DNA from: Brachybacterium halotolerans
GTDB lineage: Bacteria > Actinomycetota > Actinomycetes > Actinomycetales > Dermabacteraceae
DNA: 64,000 bases
Direction of reading: 5' to 3'
Assembly (NCBI RefSeq): GCF_016623465.1
Contig: NZ_JAEDAJ010000004.1
Coordinates: 62,001 to 126,000, forward strand
Shown: one piece after another, positions 7,755 through 22,928 of the stretch
Position numbering within the stretch: position 1 is the stretch's first letter
How the letters are laid out: each line of letters starts with the position of its first letter
Program-made: the position numbers and the translations under genes
The notes under the pieces: generated by a model
Told to the model about the DNA's origin: nothing
What the model saw: only the letters and a program-made list of their open reading frames with translations
The model's database searches: none

Positions 7755-9782
7755 TCAGCGCCGATCGCCGCCGTCCGAGCGCAGCACGATCCCCGCAGTC
7801 GACTCACGCACGACGAGTCGGTGAGGGGCGGTGATGTGCTCGCCCACCGGCCCACCTGCCGGCTTGTCCGGAGTGCTCCCGCCGCGTCCCGTCGCCAATT
7901 CCAGTGCGGCGTCAGCGATGGTGTCGAACGCCGGGGCGACCGAGGTGAGGCTGGGCGTGCTGTAGCGCGCGTCATCCGAGCTGTCGAAGCCCACGATCGC
8001 CACCTCGCCGGGGACCTCCCGACCCCGGGAGAGGAGCGCGCGCTGCGCGCCGAGCGCCAGCTCATCGTTGAACCCGATGACCGCATCGAAGGAGGCACCC
8101 CGGTCGAGGAGCTCGTGGACCGCACGCTCTCCGCTCTCGCGATCCCAGCGCGGGGCCGGTGCGAGCAGCGCCGGGTCGATCGGCACACCGTGCAGGGTGG
8201 CGGCACGGCGACAGCCGCGGACCCGCGCCTCGGCGACGGCGCGATGGGCGAGGCCGAGCAGGACGACCCGGCGTCGTCCCGTGCGGAGCAGGTGCTGCAT
8301 GGCAGTGCTCGCCGCGTCCGAGTTGCTGATCGTGATCTGGGCGACCCGTTGCTGGGGCACCCCCTCCCCCAGGAGCACGAACGGAATGGTCGAGGAGGCC
8401 CGTCGGATGTCGTCCTCCCGGAGGCCGTGCGCCGCGATGATCAGTCCGTCGGCCTGACGACGCGCCATGTCGATCGCCTCGAGCTCGCGCTCGCGCCGTC
8501 CGCCCGTGGTCTGGACGAGGATCCCGAGGCCTCGGGCGGCCGCCGCGGCGATGATCTGCTCCGCCAGCTGTGCGAAGTAGCTGAGCCTGAGCTCGGGGAG
8601 CGCCAGGACGAGCGCGCGAGGTCGACCGGTGCGCAGCTGGCGCGCGGCGGGATGCACCTGGTAGTCGAGCTCGCCGACCGCCGCTTCCACGCGCGCCCTC
8701 GTCGAGGGGGAGACATGCTTCGCCCCGGTCAGGACGTTGGAGACGGTCTTCACCGACACGCCTGCTCGAGCGGCGACGTCGCTCATGATCGGGCGCCGCG
8801 GGGAACGATGCTCCGCCCCGCCTCCGACCCCACCTTCGGCACCGAGATCCGACCAGGTCAGGGCGCCATCCCTGGGCCCCGCGGCCCGCACGGCGCTCAC
8901 GGCCCGCGCCAGCGCCGCCCCGGACCGGGATCGATGCGCGATCAGGGTGAGCACGTCCAGCACCCGGAGCCACTGCGAGAAGGTGTCGACCGCGGTGATC
9001 GCGCCACCGCCCTCGCCACCTGTCGGCGGCGTGATGCCCGTGCAGACGAGGTGCGCCCCGGATCGCACGAACGTCTGCAGGGCGGCCTGCACCTCGAGAT
9101 CGGCTGACTGGGCCCGCTCGCCCTCGCGGCCTGCGACCGGCGCGCTCCCGGAGGGGTCCACGAGGCGTTCCGCGTGCTCGCGCACCGCGCGGGAGAGGGC
9201 CGTCGACCGCGTGGGCGCAGGGGCGGGTGGTCGCGGCGCTGCGTGCTCCGAGTCGCTCGCCGCGAAGGCGAGCACGGCACGTGGCGGATCGAGGATCAGC
9301 CCGACAATGGTTCCGGCGGTGACCGTGAGGCCCGGACGGCTCGACAGCCGCACTCCGCCGCCGCGCGCCGGTGTCACGTCGTAGAGGCTCCAGGCCCTCG
9401 AGACCGACGAGGCGCTGACGCCCAGCGCTGCCCCGAGCGTCCGCGTGCTCCACCTCGAGCTCCTCGCTCCGGGCACGAGCGGGGGCGGATCCAGCGTGCG
9501 CAGGATGATGCTCTGCGGGTCAGCAGCCGGCGGGCGACCTCCCCGTGGACGATCTCCGAGGCAGTCCACCCCTTCGGACACGTACCTCGCTCTCCACCGG
9601 ATGACCGTTCCGCGACTGGTCGACTCCATCGCCGCGATCTCAGTATTCGAGAATCCTCGCGCCGCGAGCAGCAGGATCCCGGCCCGCCGCGCGACGGCCG
9701 GCGCGCCTCTCCGCGCGGCGGCGGAGAGCACCTCCTCGTCGCCCGCCCGCAGGCCGAGCGGTGCCGCAGGTCCCCGTCCCAT
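7755..9782 (-). CDS. LacI-type regulator fused to an IS630-transposase-like N-terminal half
   Basis: Single 675-residue protein, twice the length of a normal LacI regulator. Residues 28-80 form an IS630/homeodomain-like helix-turn-helix (ILLLAARGFSNTEIAAM, TVIRWRARYVSEGVDCLGDR), 82-140 the proline-rich linker and second helix-turn-helix (WSTRTLGAALGVSASSVSRA), and 157-166 (GTIVGLILDP) matches the start of the IS630 catalytic core. The catalytic motifs that should follow are not recognisable, so transposition is not expected. Residues 333-353 are a LacI headpiece (MSDVAARAGVSVKTVSNVL) followed by a full periplasmic-binding-protein-like sensor ending in PHRLVVRESTAGIV. The ATG at 9782 has an AAAGGAG ribosome site; the internal ATG at residue 333 has none. 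It faces the sugar ABC/sulfatase operon and is its likely regulator. Confidence 0.85.
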   Translation of the reverse strand: MGRGPAAPLGLRAGDEEVLSAAARRGAPAVARRAGILLLAARGFSNTEIAAMESTSRGTVIRWRARYVSEGVDCLGDRPRGGRPPAADPQSIILRTLDPPPLVPGARSSRWSTRTLGAALGVSASSVSRAWSLYDVTPARGGGVRLSSRPGLTVTAGTIVGLILDPPRAVLAFAASDSEHAAPRPPAPAPTRSTALSRAVREHAERLVDPSGSAPVAGREGERAQSADLEVQAALQTFVRSGAHLVCTGITPPTGGEGGGAITAVDTFSQWLRVLDVLTLIAHRSRSGAALARAVSAVRAAGPRDGALTWSDLGAEGGVGGGAEHRSPRRPIMSDVAARAGVSVKTVSNVLTGAKHVSPSTRARVEAAVGELDYQVHPAARQLRTGRPRALVLALPELRLSYFAQLAEQIIAAAAARGLGILVQTTGGRRERELEAIDMARRQADGLIIAAHGLREDDIRRASSTIPFVLLGEGVPQQRVAQITISNSDAASTAMQHLLRTGRRRVVLLGLAHRAVAEARVRGCRRAATLHGVPIDPALLAPAPRWDRESGERAVHELLDRGASFDAVIGFNDELALGAQRALLSRGREVPGEVAIVGFDSSDDARYSTPSLTSVAPAFDTIADAALELATGRGGSTPDKPAGGPVGEHITAPHRLVVRESTAGIVLRSDGGDRR

Positions 9783-9832
9783 CACGCTCCTTTCCGTCAC
9801 CGGTTCCGAGACACGATCGTCGCACGAATACT

Positions 9833-9844
9833 GACACATCTGTC
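9833..9844. promoter_or_regulatory. Short inverted repeat between the fusion regulator and ABC operon
   Basis: GACA-CATC-TGTC, a perfect 4-base inverted repeat with a 4-base spacer, lies 51 bases upstream of the regulator start. It has the same spacer length as the repeat at 9936-9949. It may be a second operator half or chance. Confidence 0.2.
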
Positions 9845-9899
9845 GCAGCAACCCATGAAACATAGCCCTTCTGCCAGCACTTCTTCGCCAGTTTACGTA

Positions 9900-9928
9900 T
9901 TGACGGTCGGGTGCCCGGCGCATACGGT
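9900..9928 (+). promoter_or_regulatory. Predicted sigma-70-type promoter of the ABC/sulfatase operon
   Basis: TTGACG (9900-9905) and TACGGT (9923-9928) are separated by 17 bases, a good match to actinobacterial housekeeping -35 and -10 elements, and stand about 40 bases ahead of the binding-protein start codon. Confidence 0.5.
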
Positions 9929-9935
9929 CCTCGCA

Positions 9936-9949
9936 GTACACCGATGTAC
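9936..9949. promoter_or_regulatory. Candidate operator, inverted repeat GTACA-N4-TGTAC
   Basis: A perfect 5-base inverted repeat with a 4-base spacer sits 8 bases downstream of the predicted -10 element, where a bound repressor would block transcription. The divergent LacI-type fusion regulator is the obvious candidate to bind it. The centre is not the CpG common in LacI operators. Confidence 0.4.
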
Positions 9950-9966: not shown

Positions 9967-11421
9967 ATGGAGAGGATCCCCCGACGGGGCGCGCTCGCGC
10001 TGTTCGCCGCCGGCGCCGCCCTCCCGGTGAGCGGCTGCGCACGCTCCTCGACCCGCGGCGGCGTCGCGCACGGCGATGCGGGCTCGCTGCAGTGGTGGGA
10101 TCACTTCGACCCGCTGAAGTCCGCGCTGACCGGGCTCTTCGACGAGTTCGAGGGGAACGTCGGCGTCGCGGTCGAGCGCACCGTCTACAACCCCGACAGC
10201 ATGGGGCAGGCGCTGCAGCTGGCCGAAGGCAGCGACCAGCTCCCCGACGTGTTCACGAATTTCTTCGGGGCACCCTCTGCGGCCCTGGTCGATCGCGGCA
10301 CCGTCGCTCCCGTGGAGCTCAGCGACGAGGCGCGCCGTGGGCTGGAGGGGTCGCTGTTCGAGGGAGTGCACACGTTCGACGGGAAGATCTTCACCGTCCC
10401 GATCTTCAGCCACCGCCAGAATTCGACCCTGACGTGGGCGAACTCCCGCCTGTTGGAGAAGGCCGGCCACGATGCGGAGAATCTGCCGAGCACGTGGGAC
10501 GACTTCCGGACCCTCTGCAGGGACCTCGTGGCCTCCGGAACGGACCATCCATGGGTGGCGCCGCTAGCCCACTCCGACCGGATGCAGGAGCATCTGGTGG
10601 ACCTCGCGCAGTCCGCCGGCCAGAGCCTGGCGATGGTCGGGTCCAGCGGGAACGGGATCACCGACGCACGGACCGGGGACTTCCCCTTCGCGAGCGAGGC
10701 GTTCCTCGAGGCGTTCGCCTTCCTGCATTCCCTGATCACGGACGGCTTCATGCTGCCGGCGTCCACCTCTCTGGATGCACGGGAGGCGCGTGTGCGGTGG
10801 GCGTCGGGCGAGGCCGCGTTCTTCTTCGACGGCCCCTGGAACGCGGGCGTCCTGAACGGCCAGTTCGGCGAGTTCATGGAGGACGTGCGCGTGTCGGGGC
10901 CGCCGTCGCCCGACGGGCGCGGGCTCACAGCGCGGCCGCCCGCCGACGGCCAGTTCTGGTGCGCGGGGAGGTCGCAGCGCCGCGAGGAGGTCGGGGAGCT
11001 GTTCTCCCTGCTGACCCGGTCGGAGTTCGCCGTGGCCCTCGCCGAGAACATGGATCAGCCGCCGGCGGATCCGCATGCCCTGGACAGGGCCGAGGTCCCC
11101 GCTCTGTACTCGCTCGCCGTGCGGCTGCTCGAGAAGAACGTGCGCACGGCGCCCAGTCCCGTGGTGCGGAATCCCGCCGTGGGCTCCGTGATCGCGGAGA
11201 TGAACGACATCCGACCCGACCTCGGCGACATCATCCAGGGGTACCTGGGCGGGGACATCGATGACCTGGGGAAGGAGCTCACGCGCTTCAACGATCGCCT
11301 CTCGACGGAGCGAGACCGGGCGATCGACGTGGTGAACGACGCCGGCGGGGGCGTCTCCGTGCAGGACTGGATCTTCGAGGAGTACAGGAGCGGCGATGAC
11401 TTCGATGTCACGGACTACTGA
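9967..11421 (+). CDS. Sugar ABC transporter substrate-binding lipoprotein
   Basis: Extracellular binding protein (484 residues) for a carbohydrate importer. The N-terminus has a positively charged start (MERIPRRG), a short hydrophobic stretch and the lipobox LPVSGC with lipidation at Cys24. The mature part follows the family 1 sugar-binding pattern: LQWWDHFDPLKSALTGLFDE, DQLPDVFTNF, VPIFSHRQNSTLTWANSRLL, TWDDFRTLCRDLVASG and GEAAFFFDGPW. Ribosome site GAGGAG precedes the ATG at 9967. It is first in a unit with two permeases and a sulfatase, so a sulfated or sulfatase-linked oligosaccharide is the likely ligand. No ATPase gene is nearby, so the transporter probably borrows a shared MsiK-like subunit. 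Confidence 0.9.
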   Translation: MERIPRRGALALFAAGAALPVSGCARSSTRGGVAHGDAGSLQWWDHFDPLKSALTGLFDEFEGNVGVAVERTVYNPDSMGQALQLAEGSDQLPDVFTNFFGAPSAALVDRGTVAPVELSDEARRGLEGSLFEGVHTFDGKIFTVPIFSHRQNSTLTWANSRLLEKAGHDAENLPSTWDDFRTLCRDLVASGTDHPWVAPLAHSDRMQEHLVDLAQSAGQSLAMVGSSGNGITDARTGDFPFASEAFLEAFAFLHSLITDGFMLPASTSLDAREARVRWASGEAAFFFDGPWNAGVLNGQFGEFMEDVRVSGPPSPDGRGLTARPPADGQFWCAGRSQRREEVGELFSLLTRSEFAVALAENMDQPPADPHALDRAEVPALYSLAVRLLEKNVRTAPSPVVRNPAVGSVIAEMNDIRPDLGDIIQGYLGGDIDDLGKELTRFNDRLSTERDRAIDVVNDAGGGVSVQDWIFEEYRSGDDFDVTDY

Positions 11422-12364
11422 GCCGCGGGCCGCGAGAGGGGCTCCCCGCAGTGCGGGCGAGGTCGCGGTCGCGAAGCGTCGGCGGCCCTCCCTCTGGATC
11501 TACGTGTTCCTGGCGCCCACGGTGGTGCTGTTCGGGATGTACACGGTGTGGCCGAGCATCTCGAGCCTGGTGTATTCGACGCTCGAGTGGCGGGGCCTGG
11601 GCCTCGAGCGCTCCTTCACCGGTCTCGAGAACTACCGGCGCCTGCTGGCGGATCCGCTGTTCTGGAAGTCCCTGTGGATCACCCTGCTGATCATCGTGGT
11701 CACGGTGCCCCTGAGGGTGACAGCGGGCCTCCTGCTCGCACTCGTGCTCAACAACCCTCGGCTGCCGCTCGCGGGCCTGCTGCGCACCGCGTTCTTCGTG
11801 CCCGTCGTCGCGACCACGGCGATCGTCGGCTTCGTCATGGGGTTCGTACTGGACCCGTCGGCGGGCCCGATCAACGAGGCGCTCTCGATCCTCGGCGTCG
11901 GCCCCGTCGACTTCCTGGGCAGTTCGCGGACCTCGCTGTGGGCGGTCATGGGCGTGCACGTCTGGAAGTGGCTGGGCGTCACCCTGATCTATTGGCTCGC
12001 CGCCCTGCAGACGGTTCCGCGCGAGCTCCTCGAAGCCGCCGAGACCGACGGAGCGGGGCCCGCCGCGCGGCTGCGCCATGTGACCCTGCCGCTGCTGCGT
12101 CCCTTCGCGGTGATCATCGTGGTCCTCACCGTCATCGAGACGATGCAGATCTTCGACCTCGTGGTCACGATGACGGGCGGCGGCCCGTTCTTCTCCACCC
12201 TGGCCACCGAGGTTTACATCTACGACACGGCGTTCGGCGCGGCCAGGCCCGATCTGGGCTATGCATCGGCCATCGGGGTCGCCTTCGGCGTCCTGACGGT
12301 GCTGCTGATGGTGGTGCTCACGCTCGTGATGCGACTGGCACGGCGACGGCAGGAGGAGCGATGA
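11396..12364 (+). CDS. Sugar ABC transporter permease (MalF type)
   Basis: Inner-membrane permease of 322 residues with six predicted helices. The conserved cytoplasmic loop that contacts the ATPase is present as ELLEAAETDGAGPAARLRHVTLPLL (EAA motif; the distal glycine and PLL are clear). The start overlaps the 3' end of the binding-protein gene by 26 bases and has an AGGAG site upstream; a second ATG at 11405 is possible. It forms the transmembrane pore together with the next gene product. Confidence 0.92.
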   Translation: MTSMSRTTEPRAARGAPRSAGEVAVAKRRRPSLWIYVFLAPTVVLFGMYTVWPSISSLVYSTLEWRGLGLERSFTGLENYRRLLADPLFWKSLWITLLIIVVTVPLRVTAGLLLALVLNNPRLPLAGLLRTAFFVPVVATTAIVGFVMGFVLDPSAGPINEALSILGVGPVDFLGSSRTSLWAVMGVHVWKWLGVTLIYWLAALQTVPRELLEAAETDGAGPAARLRHVTLPLLRPFAVIIVVLTVIETMQIFDLVVTMTGGGPFFSTLATEVYIYDTAFGAARPDLGYASAIGVAFGVLTVLLMVVLTLVMRLARRRQEER

Positions 12365-13293
12365 CCACCACGCAGGCGCAGGAGCCCTCGCGGGATCTGC
12401 ATGCCCGTCGGGAGCCGGGACGGACTCGCAGGCGACCGGTGTCGGATCCGAGAGCCCGCGGCCGCGGGCGGCGACGCATCGGGAGATGGGCGCAGACGCT
12501 CGTCGTGGGAGCTCTGGGACTGCTGTGGATCTACCCGCTGCTCTGGGTGCTGGCGGCCTCGTTCAAGGATTCTCTCGACATCTTCTCGGGCGGGCTGGGG
12601 CTGCTTCCGGACTCCTGGCATCCGGAGAACTACCTGCGCGCATGGCGGGACGCGAACTTCTCGGGGTACATGATGAACACGGTGCTGATCACGGCCGGCA
12701 GCATCGTGCTGGTCGTGGTGCGGTGCGCGATGGCCGGCTACGTGATCGCACGCTTCCGGTTCCTGGGGCGCAGGGTCGTCCTCGCAGTGCTGGTGGCGAC
12801 CATGTTCATCCCCACCGGACTGTTCGTGGTGCCGGTCGTGGAGCTCAGCGACCTGCTCGGACTGCTGAACACGCGGACCGGCCTGGTGCTCGCGATCGCG
12901 GGAGGCGGGAACGTCGCCGCCGTGCTGCTGTACGTCGGCTTCTTCTCCCGGGTCCCGAAGGAGCTCGAGGAAGCCGCGGTGATGGACGGGGCAGGCTTCC
13001 TGCGCGTGTTCTTCCGGGTCATGCTGCCGCTGTCGGGACCGGTGACGGCCACGGTGGTGGTGCTGACGTTCCTCTCGAGCTGGAACAACTTCTTCCTGCC
13101 GCTGGTGTTCACCTTCAGCACCCCGCAGAACCGCACGCTCGCCGTCGGCATGATGGCTTTCCAGGGGACCAACTCCACGGACTGGGCAGGGCTCGCGGCC
13201 GCCGCGTCGATCTCCCTCGTGCCGATCGTGCTGCTGTTCCTGCTCCTGCAGCGCTATTTCGTCGAAGGGATCGCCGGTGCCGTGAAGAACTGA
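12361..13293 (+). CDS. Sugar ABC transporter permease (MalG type)
   Basis: Second permease, 310 residues. A charged N-terminal region of about 50 residues (rich in Arg) is followed by six helices and the EAA loop KELEEAAVMDGAGFLRVFFR, with the family C-terminus LLLQRYFVEGIAGAVKN. The ATG at 12361 overlaps the stop of the first permease (ATGA), so the pair is co-translated. It pairs with the MalF-type permease in import of the oligosaccharide. Confidence 0.92.
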   Translation: MTTTQAQEPSRDLHARREPGRTRRRPVSDPRARGRGRRRIGRWAQTLVVGALGLLWIYPLLWVLAASFKDSLDIFSGGLGLLPDSWHPENYLRAWRDANFSGYMMNTVLITAGSIVLVVVRCAMAGYVIARFRFLGRRVVLAVLVATMFIPTGLFVVPVVELSDLLGLLNTRTGLVLAIAGGGNVAAVLLYVGFFSRVPKELEEAAVMDGAGFLRVFFRVMLPLSGPVTATVVVLTFLSSWNNFFLPLVFTFSTPQNRTLAVGMMAFQGTNSTDWAGLAAAASISLVPIVLLFLLLQRYFVEGIAGAVKN

Positions 13294-13397: not shown

Positions 13398-14837
13398 ATG
13401 TCCCGTCCCAACATCCTGTTCCTGTGCACCGACCAGCAGCGCTTCGATGCGCTCGGTGCCGCGGGCAACGAGCACATCCGCACCCCGCACCTCGACCGTC
13501 TGGCAGCGCAGGGGGCGCGCTTCAGCAACTGCTACACGCAGTCGCCGATCTGCGCGCCCTCCCGCGGGAGCCTGATGACGGGCCGCTATCCGCGCAACCA
13601 CGGGCTGTGGGCGAACGGCGTGGACATGGACCCCGGCGAGCAGCTGTTCACCAGGACCCTCGCCGACGAGGGCTACGACTGCGGGCTCGCCGGCAAGCTG
13701 CACCTCGGATCGGCCTTCGACGGCCGGATCGAGCCGCGCCTGGACGACGGGCTGCGCGTGTTCCGCTGGGCGCACGACCCGTACCTGCGCTCGGCCGGCA
13801 ACGAGTACCACCACTGGCTGCGGCGCACGCACCCGGAGCTGCACGAGAGCGCCGTCGTGAAGCGTGAGAGGTCCATCGACTCCCTGCCTCAGGAGGCGCA
13901 CTACTCGCACTGGGTCGCCGAGGAGACGATCGAGTTCCTCGGCCACTCGCGGCAGAAGGATCGTCCCTTCTGCTTCATCAGCAACTTCTTCGACCCCCAC
14001 CACGGGTTCGAGGCGCCCCAGCGCTTCCGCGACCTCTACGACGCGTCGGCCCTTCCCGCGCCCGTCACGATCGAGGACGAGCTCGCGACCAAGCCGCCCA
14101 TCTTCACCCAGGAGTCCGCGAAGTCCTATGCCGGGCACATGCCCGGGTTCGACGACTACTCCCCCGAGGATCTCCAGGAGATCAAGGCCCAGTACTTCGC
14201 GATGGTCACCCTCGTCGACGAGGAGGTGGGCCGCATCCTCGACGCCCTCGAGCGCGAGGGGCTCGCGGAGGACACCCTGGTGATCTTCACGAGCGACCAC
14301 GGGGAGATGCTCGGCGATCACCGCATGCTGCTCAAGGGGCCGATGATGTTCGACTGCTCGGTGAAGGTCCCGCTGCTCATGCGCTGGCCCGGGCAGATCC
14401 CCGAAGGCATGGTCGCCGACGAGCTCGTGGAGTGGATCGACCTCACCCGCACGGTGCTCTCGGCCGCGGGATCGACCGGGCTGCCACGGGCGCAGGGGCG
14501 CGACCTCGCGGGGCTGTGGTCGGGCGACGCCGACCCGTTCGATGACCGCGACTGGGTGCTCTCGGAGTACCGCGACGGCTGCTGGGCCTACGACCCGCCC
14601 GTGCAGACCACGATGGTCCGACGGGGCACATGGAAGATCGTCGTGCACCACGGGCGTCCCTCGACCGACCGGGAACGCACCGGGGAGCTCTACGACCTGG
14701 CCGCGGATCCGGACGAGCTGCACAACCTGTGGGACGTGCCCGAGGCGAGCCAGATGCGAGCGGAGATGCAGTCGTTCCTGCTCGACGTGCTGGTGGCGAC
14801 CGAGGACCGGTCACGGGAGAGGCTGGCGCCGTTCTGA
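13398..14837 (+). CDS. Type I sulfatase, cytoplasmic
   Basis: Sulfate-ester hydrolase of 479 residues from the alkaline-phosphatase fold. It begins MSRPNILFLCTDQQRFDALG (metal-binding Asp12) and carries the sulfatase signature CAPSRGSLMTGRYP, in which Cys52 must be converted to formylglycine. The second metal site is TSDHGEMLGDH. There is no signal peptide, so it should act on sulfated sugars after uptake by the transporter encoded just upstream (104-base gap, GGAGGA ribosome site at 13389). An in-frame ATG 39 bases further upstream is possible but lacks a site. The formylglycine-generating enzyme is not in the window. Confidence 0.92.
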   Translation: MSRPNILFLCTDQQRFDALGAAGNEHIRTPHLDRLAAQGARFSNCYTQSPICAPSRGSLMTGRYPRNHGLWANGVDMDPGEQLFTRTLADEGYDCGLAGKLHLGSAFDGRIEPRLDDGLRVFRWAHDPYLRSAGNEYHHWLRRTHPELHESAVVKRERSIDSLPQEAHYSHWVAEETIEFLGHSRQKDRPFCFISNFFDPHHGFEAPQRFRDLYDASALPAPVTIEDELATKPPIFTQESAKSYAGHMPGFDDYSPEDLQEIKAQYFAMVTLVDEEVGRILDALEREGLAEDTLVIFTSDHGEMLGDHRMLLKGPMMFDCSVKVPLLMRWPGQIPEGMVADELVEWIDLTRTVLSAAGSTGLPRAQGRDLAGLWSGDADPFDDRDWVLSEYRDGCWAYDPPVQTTMVRRGTWKIVVHHGRPSTDRERTGELYDLAADPDELHNLWDVPEASQMRAEMQSFLLDVLVATEDRSRERLAPF

Positions 14838-17666: not shown

Positions 17667-18644
17667 ATGATGGCCGTCACCGACATGAAGTCACCCTCGA
17701 CAGCCGCATCGCCGCCGCTCGCACGGCGTCCACGGCCCTCGTTGCTGCGACGCATCCTGCGTGACCGCACCGTGCTGTTGCTGGCGCTCCCGGGCATGCT
17801 CCTCCTGATCGGCTTCCAGTACTTCCCGCTGCTGGGGAACGTCATCGCCTTCCAGGACTTCCAACCCTTCTTGGGGACCGATGAGAGCCTGTGGAACGGA
17901 CTGGACAACTTCCGCATTCTCGTCACCGGCGACCCGGCGTTCCTCAACGCGCTGCGCAACACGCTGATCCTCACCCTGATCCAGTCGGTGATGATCTTCC
18001 CGGTGCCGATCGTGCTGGCGCTGATGGTGAACAGCCTGATGTCCGAGAAGCTCCGCCAGGGCGTCATGTCGGTGCTGTACCTGCCGCACTTCCTGTCCTG
18101 GGTGATCGTGGTCGCGGTGTTCCAGCAGATGCTGGGCGGCTCCGGCATGGTCAACAACCTGCTCCGCTCCAACGGCCTGCCCACCTTCGACGTGATCGGC
18201 AACGCCGACCTGTTCAAGGTGCTGCTGACCTCTCAGGTCATCTGGAAGGACACCGGTTGGGCGGCGATCCTGTTCATCGCCGTGCTGGCAGGGATCGACA
18301 GGTCGCTGTACGAGGCGGCCGCCGTCGACGGCGCCTCGCGCTTCCAGCAGACCCTCAACGTCACCTTGCCCGGCCTGCGCCCCATCGTGATCCTGCTGTT
18401 CATCCTCCAGCTGGGCAACTCCCTCAGCGTCGGTTTCGAGCAGATCATCCTGCAGCAGCAGGCCGTCGGGATCGACGCCAGCGAAGTGCTCGACACCTAT
18501 GTGTTCAACGAGGGCATCGCCGGCGGCCAATGGGGAACCGCCGCCGCTGTCGGCCTGGTCAAGAGCGTGATCGGACTGGTCCTCGTCCTCACTGCGAACA
18601 AGATCGCCCACTCCATGGGCGAGGAAGGGGTCTACAGGGCATGA
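17667..18644 (+). CDS. Polysaccharide ABC transporter permease (LplB/YteP type)
   Basis: Six-helix permease of 325 residues for a type I sugar importer. It starts with MMAVTDMK after a strong GAAGGAGG ribosome site and a basic segment (RRPRPSLLRRILRD). FQYFPLLGNVIAFQDFQPF is the family's first periplasmic segment, and SLYEAAAVDGASRFQQTLNV followed by LPGL is the ATPase-contact EAA loop. The LplB/YteP class usually serves oligogalacturonides, alginate or other complex polysaccharide fragments. It is first of a unit of two permeases, a binding protein and a sulfatase. Confidence 0.92.
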   Translation: MMAVTDMKSPSTAASPPLARRPRPSLLRRILRDRTVLLLALPGMLLLIGFQYFPLLGNVIAFQDFQPFLGTDESLWNGLDNFRILVTGDPAFLNALRNTLILTLIQSVMIFPVPIVLALMVNSLMSEKLRQGVMSVLYLPHFLSWVIVVAVFQQMLGGSGMVNNLLRSNGLPTFDVIGNADLFKVLLTSQVIWKDTGWAAILFIAVLAGIDRSLYEAAAVDGASRFQQTLNVTLPGLRPIVILLFILQLGNSLSVGFEQIILQQQAVGIDASEVLDTYVFNEGIAGGQWGTAAAVGLVKSVIGLVLVLTANKIAHSMGEEGVYRA

Positions 18645-19603
18645 GCACCACGACCGAGAACCCCCAGACCACCCCGGGCGGGTCCGCATCTGCCCGGACC
18701 ACCCCGGCCGACGCCCACCGGCGGCGGGCGAAGCTCAATGCCGCCGGGCCCGTCGAGAAGACAACGAAGACGATCGTCCTGGTCATCGCCTGTGCACTGG
18801 TGATCGTCCCGTTCATCGGCATCGTCGCGACCTCGATCGCCCCCGCGGATCAGGTCACGAACTCCGGCGGGTTCGTGCTGTTCCCCCGCGAGGTCGACCT
18901 GACCGCCTACCGCTCGATCCTCTCCGGCGGAGTCGTTTCCCGAGCCCTGCTGGTCTCGATCGGCATCACCGCGGTCGGCACGATCCTCAGTCTGATGATC
19001 ACGGCGATGCTCGCCTGGGCCCTCTCCCGCCGTGGCACCGTCGCGAACCGCCCGATGCTGCTGCTGGTGCTGTTCAGCCTGCTGTTCTCCCCCGGCCTGA
19101 TCCCGACCTATCTGGCGGTGCGCCAGTTCGGTCTGATCGACTCCTACTGGTCACTGATCATCCCGACCGCGGTCAGCGGGTTCAACGTGATCGTGGTGCG
19201 CAGCTTCTTCGTCAGCCTGCCCGACGAGATCCTCGACGCCGCGAAGGTCGACGGCGCCAGCGAATGGCAGGTCTTCCGCCGTATCGGCATCCCGCTCTCC
19301 CGTGCCGCGCTGGCCGTGATCGGGCTGTTCTACGGCGTGAACTACTGGAACGCGTTCTTCAGCGCGCTGCTGTACATCAACGACGCCGCGAAGTGGCCGC
19401 TGCAGATGGTGCTGCGCACCTATGTCGTCAACGGCGCGCAGATGGGCACCTCCGAGCTCGGCACTGCCGTGGAGGCGGCCCCGCCGCAGGAGACCATCCA
19501 GATGGCCATCCTCGTCATCTCCATCGTGCCGATCCTCATCGTCTACCCGTTCCTGCAGCGGCACTTCTCCAAGGGTGTCCTGACGGGCGCGGTGAAAGGC
19601 TGA
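18641..19603 (+). CDS. Polysaccharide ABC transporter permease (YtcP/YesQ type)
   Basis: Partner permease of 320 residues; the ATG at 18641 overlaps the previous stop (ATGA). After a low-complexity N-terminus it shows six helices, the loop PDEILDAAKVDGASEWQVFR, and the family end FLQRHFSKGVLTGAVKG. Also typical is LLFSPGLIPTYLAVRQFGLID. It forms the heterodimeric channel with the preceding gene product. No ATPase is encoded nearby. Confidence 0.92.
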   Translation: MSTTTENPQTTPGGSASARTTPADAHRRRAKLNAAGPVEKTTKTIVLVIACALVIVPFIGIVATSIAPADQVTNSGGFVLFPREVDLTAYRSILSGGVVSRALLVSIGITAVGTILSLMITAMLAWALSRRGTVANRPMLLLVLFSLLFSPGLIPTYLAVRQFGLIDSYWSLIIPTAVSGFNVIVVRSFFVSLPDEILDAAKVDGASEWQVFRRIGIPLSRAALAVIGLFYGVNYWNAFFSALLYINDAAKWPLQMVLRTYVVNGAQMGTSELGTAVEAAPPQETIQMAILVISIVPILIVYPFLQRHFSKGVLTGAVKG

Positions 19604-19605
19604 TC

Positions 19606-21240
19606 ATGACCTCACGACTCGTCCCCACCCGGCGCGCGCTCCTCGCCGCCGGCGGTGCGGGCGCCGCCGCACTGCTCGGCGCCTGCAGCAACCAGGGCCG
19701 GGGCGGCATCCCGGTGAAGTACGCCAACGCCCCTGTGACGCTGCCGGAGCACATCCCCTACCAGGGGGTCACGCCGGACCTGCCCGGTGACCCGAAGACC
19801 GGACTCATGGATGGGTACTTCGAGTACCCGTCGTCGCCCACCGCCGCCACATCCGGCGCCCCGGGAGACGGCGATGCCATCAGCTCCCTCGTGCGCACGG
19901 ACTCCCCCGTCCCTCCCGGCGTCTCGCGGAACGCGTTCTGGCAGGCGCTGAACGAGCGCCTCGGCTCCGACCTGAAGATGAACATCGTGCCGGCGCCGGA
20001 CTGGGACCAGAAGTTCGCCACCGTCGTCGCCGGCGATTCCCTCCCCGAGCTGTTCGTCGTCGCGGGCGGGATGCAGGAGCTCCCGAAGTTCCTCGAGGCC
20101 ACCGCCGCCGATCTCACGCCCCACCTCTCGGGGTCCGCGGTGAAGGACTACCCCTTCCTCGCGAACATCCCGACGGACACGTGGGAGCAGAGCGCGTTCA
20201 ACGGGAAGATCATGGGGGTCCCGGTCCCTCGGGGGATCATGAGCTCCTCGGTCCTCTACAAGAGGACCGATCTGCTGGAGGAGAAGGGCATCACGGAGGA
20301 CCCGGACTCCTTCGAGGAGTTCCTCGCGCTGTGCAAGGAGCTGACATCCCCGCGGTCCAATGTGTGGGCCCTGGGGGCCGCTCCTCTCGATCTGGTGCGC
20401 CAGATGCTCGGGATCCCCAACACCTGGTCCGAGAAGGGCGGCCACCTGACGCGCAGCCTCGAGTCCGAGCAGCAGAAGGAGGCGTTGGAGGCCACCCGGA
20501 AGATGGTCGAGGCAGGCGTCGTCAGCCCCGACGCCTTCTCCTCCCAGGCGACCGACCGCAAGAACTGGTTCGTTGCGGGCCGCAACTACTTCATGATGGA
20601 CACCTTCTCCGCCTGGCCGAACTTCGAACAGATCCAGTCCGTCGGTGACAGCTTCAGGATGGACACCATGCGCACGCCGGGCTTCCACGGCGACCCCGAG
20701 ATGGCCTGCGCGTGGCTCGGCAATCCCACCTACGGCATCTCGAGCATCCGCAAGGACGCCGGAGAGCGGATCCCGACCCTGCTCAGGGTGCTGAACTTCC
20801 TGGCGGCTCCCTTCGGCACGGAGGAGTACCTTTTTCGGGTGTACGGGGTGGAAGGCGTGGATTACGATCTGCAGGGTTCGGACCCTGTGGCGACCAACCG
20901 AGGGGTCAGCGAGACCCCGCTGGGATTCCGCTACCTCACGGATGCTCCCTGGCCCGTCTACGTCCCGGGCAAGAGGCGCTCCACGCAGAGCTGGTACGAC
21001 GGGCAGAAGATGGTCGTCGCGTACGGCCTCGCTGATCCCACCCTGGGTCTCTACTCGGAGGCCGACACCCGGATCGGCGGCAGCATCACGGGACGCATCG
21101 ACGACCTCACCAACGACATCCTCCAGGGCCGCAAGCCGGTGTCAGCATGGGACGACGGGGTGGCCGCATGGAAGAAGGCGGGCGGGAACCGGATCCGTGA
21201 CGAGCTCGAACAGGCGCGGGCGGACAAGGAGTCGTCATGA
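19606..21240 (+). CDS. Polysaccharide ABC transporter binding lipoprotein (LplA/YtcQ type)
   Basis: Large extracellular binding protein, 544 residues, anchored by a lipid at Cys27 (lipobox LLGAC). Its long mature region with VPPGVSRNAFWQALNERLGS, VAGDSLPELFVVAGG, VLYKRTDLLEEKGITEDPDS and FGTEEYLFRVYGVEGVDYDL is typical of the roughly 500-residue LplA/YtcQ group that binds oligosaccharides. It starts 2 bases after the second permease stop. In this unit it should deliver a complex, possibly sulfated, glycan fragment. Confidence 0.92.
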   Translation: MTSRLVPTRRALLAAGGAGAAALLGACSNQGRGGIPVKYANAPVTLPEHIPYQGVTPDLPGDPKTGLMDGYFEYPSSPTAATSGAPGDGDAISSLVRTDSPVPPGVSRNAFWQALNERLGSDLKMNIVPAPDWDQKFATVVAGDSLPELFVVAGGMQELPKFLEATAADLTPHLSGSAVKDYPFLANIPTDTWEQSAFNGKIMGVPVPRGIMSSSVLYKRTDLLEEKGITEDPDSFEEFLALCKELTSPRSNVWALGAAPLDLVRQMLGIPNTWSEKGGHLTRSLESEQQKEALEATRKMVEAGVVSPDAFSSQATDRKNWFVAGRNYFMMDTFSAWPNFEQIQSVGDSFRMDTMRTPGFHGDPEMACAWLGNPTYGISSIRKDAGERIPTLLRVLNFLAAPFGTEEYLFRVYGVEGVDYDLQGSDPVATNRGVSETPLGFRYLTDAPWPVYVPGKRRSTQSWYDGQKMVVAYGLADPTLGLYSEADTRIGGSITGRIDDLTNDILQGRKPVSAWDDGVAAWKKAGGNRIRDELEQARADKESS

Positions 21241-22928
21241 CCGCGACGAGGCAGCTCGGGGGTTCCGCACGAGGCCCCAACATCATCCTGATCCTCGCTG
21301 ACGACATGGGGTTCTCCGACATCGGATGCTTCGGCGGAGAGATCAGCACACCGCATCTGGACCGCCTCGGCGCCGAGGGCGCCAGGATGAGCAGCTTCTA
21401 CAACACCGCGCGGTGCTCGCCGTCGCGCGCCTCGCTCCTCACCGGCCTGCACCCCCATCAGACCGGGGTCGGGATCCTCACCGGGAGCACGCTCCCCGCC
21501 GGCTATCCGGGAGACCTGGACCCGCGCTGCGCGACCATCGCGGACATGCTCGGCGACGCCGGATACAGGACGTCCTGCATCGGCAAATGGCATCTCGCCG
21601 GGAATGTGCGGGAGCCGGACCCCGCATGGCCCACGCGTCGCGGTTTCGAGAGGCATCACGGGCCGCTGGGCGGCGCCACGAGCTACTTCGACCCGGTGAC
21701 GATGGTGGAGGACGAGGAGCCGATCGATAGCTTCGACCCGGAGTTCTCGCTCACCGAGCATCTCGGCGAGCGCGCCGATGACGAGATCCGCGCGGCGGCC
21801 CAGGATCCCCGGCCCTTCTTCCTGTATCTGGCGTTCACGGCGCCGCACTGGCCTCTCCACGCTCGTCCGGAGCAGATCGCCGAGTACCGCGAGATGTACG
21901 ACGACGGCTGGGACGTCGCACGCGCCCGACGCCTCGAGCGCATGAGCGAGCTCGGCGTCCTCGAGTCCGCCACGGAGCTGACCGAGCGGGACGAGGACGT
22001 CCCCGCCTGGGAGGAGACCGCCCACCACGCCTGGCAGGCGCGACGGATGGAGGTGTACGCCGCACAGGTCACTGCGATGGACGCCGCCATCGGCAGGGTC
22101 CTCGACGCTCTGGAGGCCACGCAGCAGTCCGAGGACACGATCGTCCTGTTCCTCTCGGACAACGGAGGATGCGCCGAGGAGATCCCTCCCGGATGGGCCG
22201 ACGAGATGGACCCCGTGCCGTACAACGTGCCCGTGCGCACCGCGGCCGGGGAGAGGGTGCGCAAGGGCAACGATCCCTCCGTCGTCCCCGGGCCCGCCTC
22301 GACGTTCGCGACCTACGGGCGCGCGTGGGCGAACGTCTCGAACACCCCGTTCCGCGAGTACAAGCACTGGGTCCACGAGGGAGGCATCGCCACGCCGCTG
22401 CTCGCCCGATGGCCGCACGGCGGCGTCGCCGCCGGCTGGGACCGCACCCCCGCCCAGCTGACCGACATCGTCCCGACGCTGCTCGAGGCGGCGGGCATCG
22501 GAGCGGTGGATCGGACCTCCCATCCCGACAGCCCGCCGCTGGAGGGTTCGTCCCTGCTCGCGGGGTGGAGGGGCGAGGAGAGCATGCCGGAACCCCATCC
22601 CCTGTTCTTCGAGCACGAGGGGAACGCCGCCGTCCGCTGCGGCCGATGGAAGGCGGTGCGCGCATTCGGCAGCGACTGGGAGCTGTACGATGTCCACGTC
22701 GACCGCACCGAGCGCCATGACCTCTCCGCGGAGTTCCCGGAGCATGTCGAGTCGCTGGTCAGCGCGTGGCGCGGATGGGCGGAGCGATGCGGTGTGCGCG
22801 ACAGGTCCGGGATCCTCGAGCAGCAGCAGGGTGGGCGAGGGGGCGGCCGTGGTCGTGGCCGGCGAAGCGGCGGTGGGCTGATCCAGGACGTGCGGTCCGC
22901 GTGGACCGTGCGGGAGATGCAGGGCTGA
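21237..22928 (+). CDS. Arylsulfatase-type sulfatase, cytoplasmic
   Basis: Sulfatase of 563 residues, ATGA-coupled to the binding-protein gene. The N-terminal PNIILILADDMGFSDIG supplies metal ligands Asp22 and Asp23, the signature CSPSRASLLTG gives formylglycine precursor Cys60, and FLSDNGGCAEE the second metal site. No signal peptide, so it probably acts on imported sugars. The last 35 residues are odd: a run of Gly and Arg followed by an unconserved tail to MQG, and the stop is followed at once by a decapitated beta-galactosidase frame, so the true 3' end of the gene may have been replaced by a deletion or rearrangement. Confidence 0.9.
   Translation: MTATRQLGGSARGPNIILILADDMGFSDIGCFGGEISTPHLDRLGAEGARMSSFYNTARCSPSRASLLTGLHPHQTGVGILTGSTLPAGYPGDLDPRCATIADMLGDAGYRTSCIGKWHLAGNVREPDPAWPTRRGFERHHGPLGGATSYFDPVTMVEDEEPIDSFDPEFSLTEHLGERADDEIRAAAQDPRPFFLYLAFTAPHWPLHARPEQIAEYREMYDDGWDVARARRLERMSELGVLESATELTERDEDVPAWEETAHHAWQARRMEVYAAQVTAMDAAIGRVLDALEATQQSEDTIVLFLSDNGGCAEEIPPGWADEMDPVPYNVPVRTAAGERVRKGNDPSVVPGPASTFATYGRAWANVSNTPFREYKHWVHEGGIATPLLARWPHGGVAAGWDRTPAQLTDIVPTLLEAAGIGAVDRTSHPDSPPLEGSSLLAGWRGEESMPEPHPLFFEHEGNAAVRCGRWKAVRAFGSDWELYDVHVDRTERHDLSAEFPEHVESLVSAWRGWAERCGVRDRSGILEQQQGGRGGGRGRGRRSGGGLIQDVRSAWTVREMQG

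Follow-up and report, generated by a model that had tools for sequence, protein, structure and literature searches.

Results

Gene Organization at the Locus

The stretch of DNA that was analysed, here called the window, comprises 64,000 nucleotides from Brachybacterium halotolerans. It contains a gene in which a degenerate IS630 transposase is joined, in one reading frame, to a LacI-family repressor, and divergent from this gene lies an operon of four genes, encoding a sugar ABC substrate-binding protein, two permeases and a sulfatase (Table 1). The regulator is read from a single frame with its ATG at 9782, its stop at 7755 and a ribosome site GGAAAGGAG, so that the uninterrupted frame of 675 amino acids with a good ribosome site of its own, as given in the preliminary description, is confirmed. 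The gene occurs in one copy in its genome. Beyond the operon, at 17667 to 22928, the window holds a further group of ABC sugar importer genes, which includes a separate sulfatase (21237 to 22928), and the permeases of this second group also occur near the fusion gene in genome G012.

Table 1. Positions of the features discussed in the text (window coordinates, except for the last line, which refers to locus L141)
Feature	Position	Strand	Remarks
Fusion regulator gene: degenerate IS630 transposase + LacI-family repressor	7755..9782	-	675 aa; nine orthologues
LacI-type sugar-sensing domain, residues 391-662	7797..8612	-	Pfam
LacI headpiece, residues 333-375	8658..8786	-	Pfam
Degenerate IS630 catalytic core, residues 146-318 (about)	8829..9347	-	Clear first strand; Ser176 at the place of the first catalytic Asp
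Probable remnant of IS630 FTPTxxSWLNLVE region, residues 261-280 (AITAVDTFSQWLRVLDVLTL)	8943..9002	-	hhalign score 17.2
Paired IS630-type helix-turn-helix units, residues 30-131	9390..9695	-	Pfam HTH_23, HTH_29, HTH_32
Motif GTGTCAGTATTCGTG resembling inner half of IS630 left terminal repeat	9823..9837	-	40 nt before regulator start codon
Predicted -35 element TTGACG of operon promoter	9900..9905	+	TTGAC in 10/10 loci
Predicted -10 element TACGGT, 17-bp spacer	9923..9928	+	TANNGT in 10/10 loci
Predicted LacI-type operator GTACACCGATGTAC at predicted transcription start	9936..9949	+	Same place in 10/10 loci
Sugar ABC substrate-binding protein (SBP_bac_1)	9967..11421	+	
ABC permease	11396..12364	+	
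ABC permease	12361..13293	+	Start from orthologues' length; gene caller: 12505
Sulfatase	13398..14837	+	Pfam Sulfatase + SGSH_C
IS630-like remnant + ROK-family repressor	L141 1114-3339	-	Divergent from sugar ABC permeases

Anatomy of the Fusion Protein

The paired helix-turn-helix DNA-binding domain that characterizes IS630 transposases is recovered in the fusion by Pfam, NCBIfam and hhalign, and the two units reported previously are thereby borne out. The NCBIfam model of the IS630 transposase matches residues 32-145 with an E-value of 2.6e-15 and 57 bits, where the cut-off for a whole protein is 100. When residues 1-182 are compared, profile against profile, with 15 actinobacterial IS630 transposases, hhalign returns a probability of 100% and an E-value of 1.2e-39. 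The profile search that had been proposed for the N-terminal part therefore identifies it as IS630 over these residues, and the segment GTIVGLILDPP is aligned with the first strand of the IS630 catalytic core, in agreement with what had been read from the letters.

The C-terminal part, residues 333-662, is a complete LacI repressor, as had also been described, with a headpiece and a periplasmic-binding-protein-like sensor (Pfam E-values of 1.2e-14 and 1.3e-22). Unlike in the LacI/GalR family at large, the headpiece is not N-terminal but starts at residue 333. The nearest unfused relatives seen have 41-47% identity. Compared with the window protein, the two nearest orthologues (L009 and L010) have 45 and 49 additional residues, most of which are in the linker that joins transposase and LacI. 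Plasmid records matched the N-terminal 321 residues in 21 cases, none of which reached 80% coverage, and those annotated among the best 10 of the 21 are IS630 transposases. A scan against a defence library gave nothing beyond short helix-turn-helix matches.

Between the two DNA-binding parts, the catalytic core is degenerate. At the position of the first catalytic Asp, where the window protein has Ser176, the remaining nine fusions have, by eye, other residues or a gap; Asp177 of the window protein stands one place further on, where G034 and G012 have Gly or Ala. The acid of the second catalytic position is absent from the fusions, again by eye on the alignment. At the third position there is, by eye, an Asp in G000, G034 and G012 and a Glu in G023 and G024, while the other five proteins have Thr or Arg. 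The DDE/DDD triad of IS630 transposases is hence incomplete in the fusion, and to this extent the earlier statement on the catalytic acids is supported; the five proteins that still have an acid at the third position are those of Brachybacterium.

Taken as a whole, the middle of the fusion has no significant hhalign alignment with the IS630 core, and the first strand alone stands out. For the tail of the ten sequences, the best local alignment nevertheless pairs AITAVDTFSQWLRVLDVL with HFTPTxxSWLNLVE of the third catalytic region, at the expected place. By the statistics of hhalign itself this trace is weak (P 0.056, probability 1%). None of 150 column shuffles, however, scored as high as its 17.2, their maximum being 15.6. 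Only 83 residues of the middle are left in the fusion of G502, from which follows that most of the middle is dispensable. Judged by its alignments, the middle is a decayed transposase core.

Distribution and Selection

The fusion of LacI with IS630 was found in ten genomes, i.e., in five of 38 Brachybacterium genomes (G000, G034, G012, G023 and G024) and in five of 24 genomes of a second family of the same order (G524, G513, G593, G502 and G457). The proteins of the second family, with lengths of 570-633 amino acids, were recovered with a profile of the five Brachybacterium fusions. The nine relatives all carry the N-terminal part, and the pattern in which they would all start at residue 333 was not seen. 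Across 394 genomes that sample the class evenly, searched at an E-value of 1e-15, no further LacI fusion was seen among the matches listed, eight loci with long frames having been opened. A tree calculated from 51 N-termini places the ten fusions in a single clade (97/98) within the actinobacterial IS630 sequences.

The ratio dN/dS, calculated for six pairs, is 0.17-0.53 in the helix-turn-helix part, 0.21-0.72 in the middle and 0.05-0.29 in the LacI part. Within the N-terminal 160 residues, 33 positions are invariant among the ten proteins, the identity of which goes down to 43%. The LacI-IS630 fusion is a conserved family. From its retention in nine other genomes, and from a dN/dS below 1 in every segment of the six pairs, follows further that it is neither a frame open by chance nor an assembly join of a transposase gene with a lacI gene. 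Long spurious frames do occur in GC-rich genomes, and other long frames overlap the fusion gene, but in view of the conservation this explanation is rejected, what probability it retains being negligible.

The Divergent Operon and Its Predicted Operator

The four-gene operon is divergent from the fusion gene in all ten loci. Among 396 genomes of the order, those with the operon's binding protein at an identity of at least 54% are exactly the ten fusion genomes, while 22 further genomes have relatives of 39% or less. At the 20 next-best loci of the binding protein, a LacI-like match was present in two (L114 and L117) and a transposase part was seen in none, in both cases within flanks of about 1.5 kb. 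Past the operon the neighbourhoods differ between the two groups of fusions, which is to be expected if the module moved or was differentially retained.

The intergenic regions of the ten loci have the same arrangement throughout, with TTGAC, a spacer of 17-18 bp, TANNGT and, directly behind, a palindrome. The palindrome GTACANCGNTGTAC is exact in G000, G034, G012, G593 and G457, has one base changed in G023, G024, G524 and G513, and has two changed in G502. The exact pattern occurs a single time in 3.85 Mb, namely at the site in the window. At the level of sequence, all ten loci have what is characteristic of LacI/GalR control, a predicted palindromic operator with a central CG at the target promoter, and the conserved palindrome is what a dedicated LacI repressor of the operon would need. 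Together with the occurrence of regulator and operon in the same ten genomes, this supports the earlier proposal that the divergent ABC/sulfatase operon is the target.

Possible Traces of Transposon Ends

Terminal repeats (TAGTGTC...) were read from 24 of 32 IS630 relatives and collected in a scoring matrix, from which the eight elements without a paired TAGT end were left out (L019, L034, L036, L040, L068, L069, L072 and L074). Among these eight are the three elements that the tree places closest to the fusions, which gave no paired repeats. In intact IS630 elements, the left repeat begins 29-58 nt before the reading frame in 13 of 15 measured cases. When the inner 15 bases of the matrix are used, a left-end-like motif is found upstream of the fusion gene in eight of the ten loci, with scores above those of all 157 control upstream regions; it is weak or absent in G023, where two controls score as high, and in G024, where eight do. 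Combined by Fisher's method over six clusters, the p-value is 1e-7 against control upstream regions and 1e-6 against shuffles, but since the clusters share ancestry these values overstate their independence.

The inner slice of 15 bases was first picked after the motif had been seen, and all 12 slices were then run. Against the 157 upstream regions, slices 4 to 11 gave p-values of at most 2.4e-6 and slices 0 to 3 gave 1.9e-5 to 6.4e-3, while the opposite orientation of the repeat matrix gave no signal in any of the 12 slices (0.13-0.98). The outcome also depends on which ends enter the matrix. Right ends only recover the upstream motif in the same eight loci (Fisher 2e-6), whereas left ends alone, or the near group alone, have their best window match at a second terminal-repeat-like site upstream of the fusion gene, 9847-9861 (GTTTCATGGGTTGCT, score 10.4). 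A matrix of the 11 more distant elements alone misses the upstream motif in most loci, and the near-group and far-group matrices are separately weaker than the pooled one. The full 26-base matrix gives a combined p-value of 1.6e-5, carried by the second family (p is 0.14 for G000), and with the outer ten bases alone the value is 1.4e-3 and is due to G524.

An inverted motif resembling the right end is present at the junction between transposase and LacI in all five fusions of the second family. There it is the best match on the minus strand of the gene and starts 25-58 nt before the LacI headpiece. When the gene and 120 nt upstream are scanned on both strands, the sense upstream motif and the antisense junction motif have the two top scores in G524, G513, G593 and G502; in G457 they rank two and three, another place in the gene scoring slightly higher than the upstream motif. 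By shuffling, the p-values of the junction motif are below 0.01 for G524 and G513, 0.01 for G593, 0.02 for G502 and 0.10 for G457. In the five Brachybacterium genes the junction motif is not kept (shuffle p 0.42-0.99). Accordingly, traces of terminal repeats are seen at both ends in the five second-family fusions, of which G457 is the weakest, at the left end only in G000, G034 and G012, and weakly or not at all in G023 and G024.

The last codons of five intact relatives read ACT TCA NNN NCN NNN CAC TAG, and in those relatives from which a right repeat was read these codons belong to it. In the second-family fusions, the codons at the place of the right end can be aligned with these in frame, by eye, and continue into LacI; such junction codons are what an entire element would be expected to leave as a scar after fusion at its right end. 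A left-end-like motif upstream and a right-end-like motif at the junction suggest that a whole IS630 element was probably captured and its stop codon read through. The preliminary description had spoken of an N-terminal half; the motifs at both ends, and the trace of the third catalytic region, point instead to capture of the element, probably entire.

The upstream motif and the operator are separated by about 113 bp in the G000 group and by 156-193 bp in the second family, and no helical phasing between the two sites was found. With a distance this variable, a rigid bridge between them is unlikely.

A ROK Fusion in Another Genus

The search of the class also retrieved a protein of 742 amino acids with a similar IS630-like N-terminus and a degenerate core, followed by a ROK repressor (Pfam ROK, 1.8e-34). 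Matches to it with an E-value of 1e-120 or better (L141; L149-L161) occur in 12 of 199 genomes of one genus. The transposase part is present in eleven of them, and the twelfth (L152) starts at a contig end and covers residues 248-739 only. Around the 12 ROK fusions a search for terminal repeats gave one weak upstream match, in L150. The LacI and ROK fusions are separated in the tree (95/83), and a joint origin is not rejected by the AU test (p = 0.159).

Discussion

Proposed Origin and Mechanism

With a probability of roughly 65%, in our estimate, the regulator is a host-transposase fusion repressor, formed from a captured IS630 element and a LacI protein, which would both repress from the operator and bind the old transposon end. 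To follow how it could have arisen, consider an IS630-family element immediately ahead of a lacI-type gene, which in turn faces an operon for the import of a sugar sulfate. Loss of the stop codon in the right end of the element would have made transposase and LacI one protein, in which catalysis was then lost while the paired helix-turn-helix domain was retained. Repression of the operon is strongly implied by the sequences: the LacI head would bind GTACANCGNTGTAC at the transcription start of the transporter and sulfatase genes, and it would leave this operator once its sensing domain has bound a sugar that comes from the sulfated import substrate. We infer, further, that the transposase-derived head may bind the left-repeat remnant that lies at the promoter of the fusion gene and so confer autorepression. 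This head might also anchor the repressor such that both divergent promoters are shut together, and then a single inducer could free both.

It may be asked if the transposase part takes any part in this. In another account it is a passive relic, the N-terminal 320 residues being a tolerated extension of a repressor that binds DNA by the LacI head alone. LacI by itself suffices for the palindrome, and the middle, reduced as it is in G502, evolves fast (dN/dS up to 0.72), but the N-terminal 160 residues have retained their invariant positions at a dN/dS of no more than 0.53, and the intergenic DNA, most of which is otherwise not conserved, has kept a terminal-repeat-like site, so that we consider the account unlikely. 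Transposon left ends often carry the promoter of the transposase, and the upstream motif might, by the same token, be a promoter element of the regulator inherited from the transposon rather than a site to which the fusion binds. Its end, 17-40 nt before the start codon, is at a possible -10 position. The motif is, however, also detected with a matrix made from right ends alone, where a promoter is not needed; by eye, the window shows no good -35 at 17 bp; and the junction copy of the second family is inside the coding frame. These points make an inherited promoter element improbable as the explanation of the motif.

Relation to Known Systems

IS630, Tc1 and mariner elements belong to one superfamily. 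When the N-terminal profile of the ten sequences is compared with the PDB, the sole match at an E-value of 0.01 is the DNA-binding domain of SETMAR (7s03, E 7.7e-6). SETMAR, or Metnase, joins a SET domain to the Hsmar1 mariner transposase in primates, and the fusion has the same elements of design, i.e., a transposase DNA-binding domain linked to a host domain, degenerate catalysis, and conservation. According to PMC9062482 and PMC8327481, SETMAR uses its DNA-binding domain to bind its own terminal repeats. With key catalytic residues lost, the DNA-binding part kept and apparent traces of old ends at its own locus or in relatives, the fusion would be a bacterial parallel to human SETMAR. It differs from SETMAR in being bacterial, in having the transposase N-terminal, in having as partner a sugar-sensing repressor with a helix-turn-helix and an operator of its own, and in that the sites resembling terminal repeats are seen at the gene itself.

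With LacI/GalR repressors the fusion shares the complete headpiece and sugar sensor and the predicted palindromic operator at the target promoter; what sets it apart is an N-terminal extension of about 320 residues, in which there are two further DNA-binding units. In common with IS630 transposases it has the paired helix-turn-helix units, the first core strand, the probable FTPTxxSWLN trace and, in eight of the ten loci, at least one motif that resembles a terminal repeat; unlike them it has an incomplete catalytic triad, lacks a stop at the right end and is present in one copy in its genome. TldR regulators originate from TnpB. They are, like the fusion, bacterial regulators derived from a transposon protein, but they come from another transposon, are guided by RNA and are not joined to a sugar repressor. 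A bacterial precedent for the fusion of IS630 with a repressor was not among the matches listed from open-licence PMC articles.

In eukaryotes, new transcription factors are known to arise by fusion of host proteins with transposases. The bacterial family seems to display this route with its scars still visible, namely the ends of the element, the loss of its stop, a core in decay and a DNA-binding domain that was retained, and with relatives at different stages. If the proposed reading is true, the captured head recognizes an old transposon end that is now an operator of the fusion gene, and one protein has both the address of a mobile element and a metabolic address. The family allows a direct test of how transposon binding sites turn into a host regulatory site. 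That Actinobacteria have repeatedly built sugar repressors from whole IS630 elements, with heads that still read the old ends and with LacI and ROK captured separately, is a tentative generalization, to which we give slightly less than even odds; if true, the separate captures are a bacterial parallel to the capture of transposases in vertebrates.

Two stand-alone proteins, of 335 amino acids in L025 (1480-2484, plus strand) and 293 amino acids in L028 (1144-2022, minus strand), have IS630 helix-turn-helix units with, by eye, no intact catalytic core, and are possibly further domesticated transposases.
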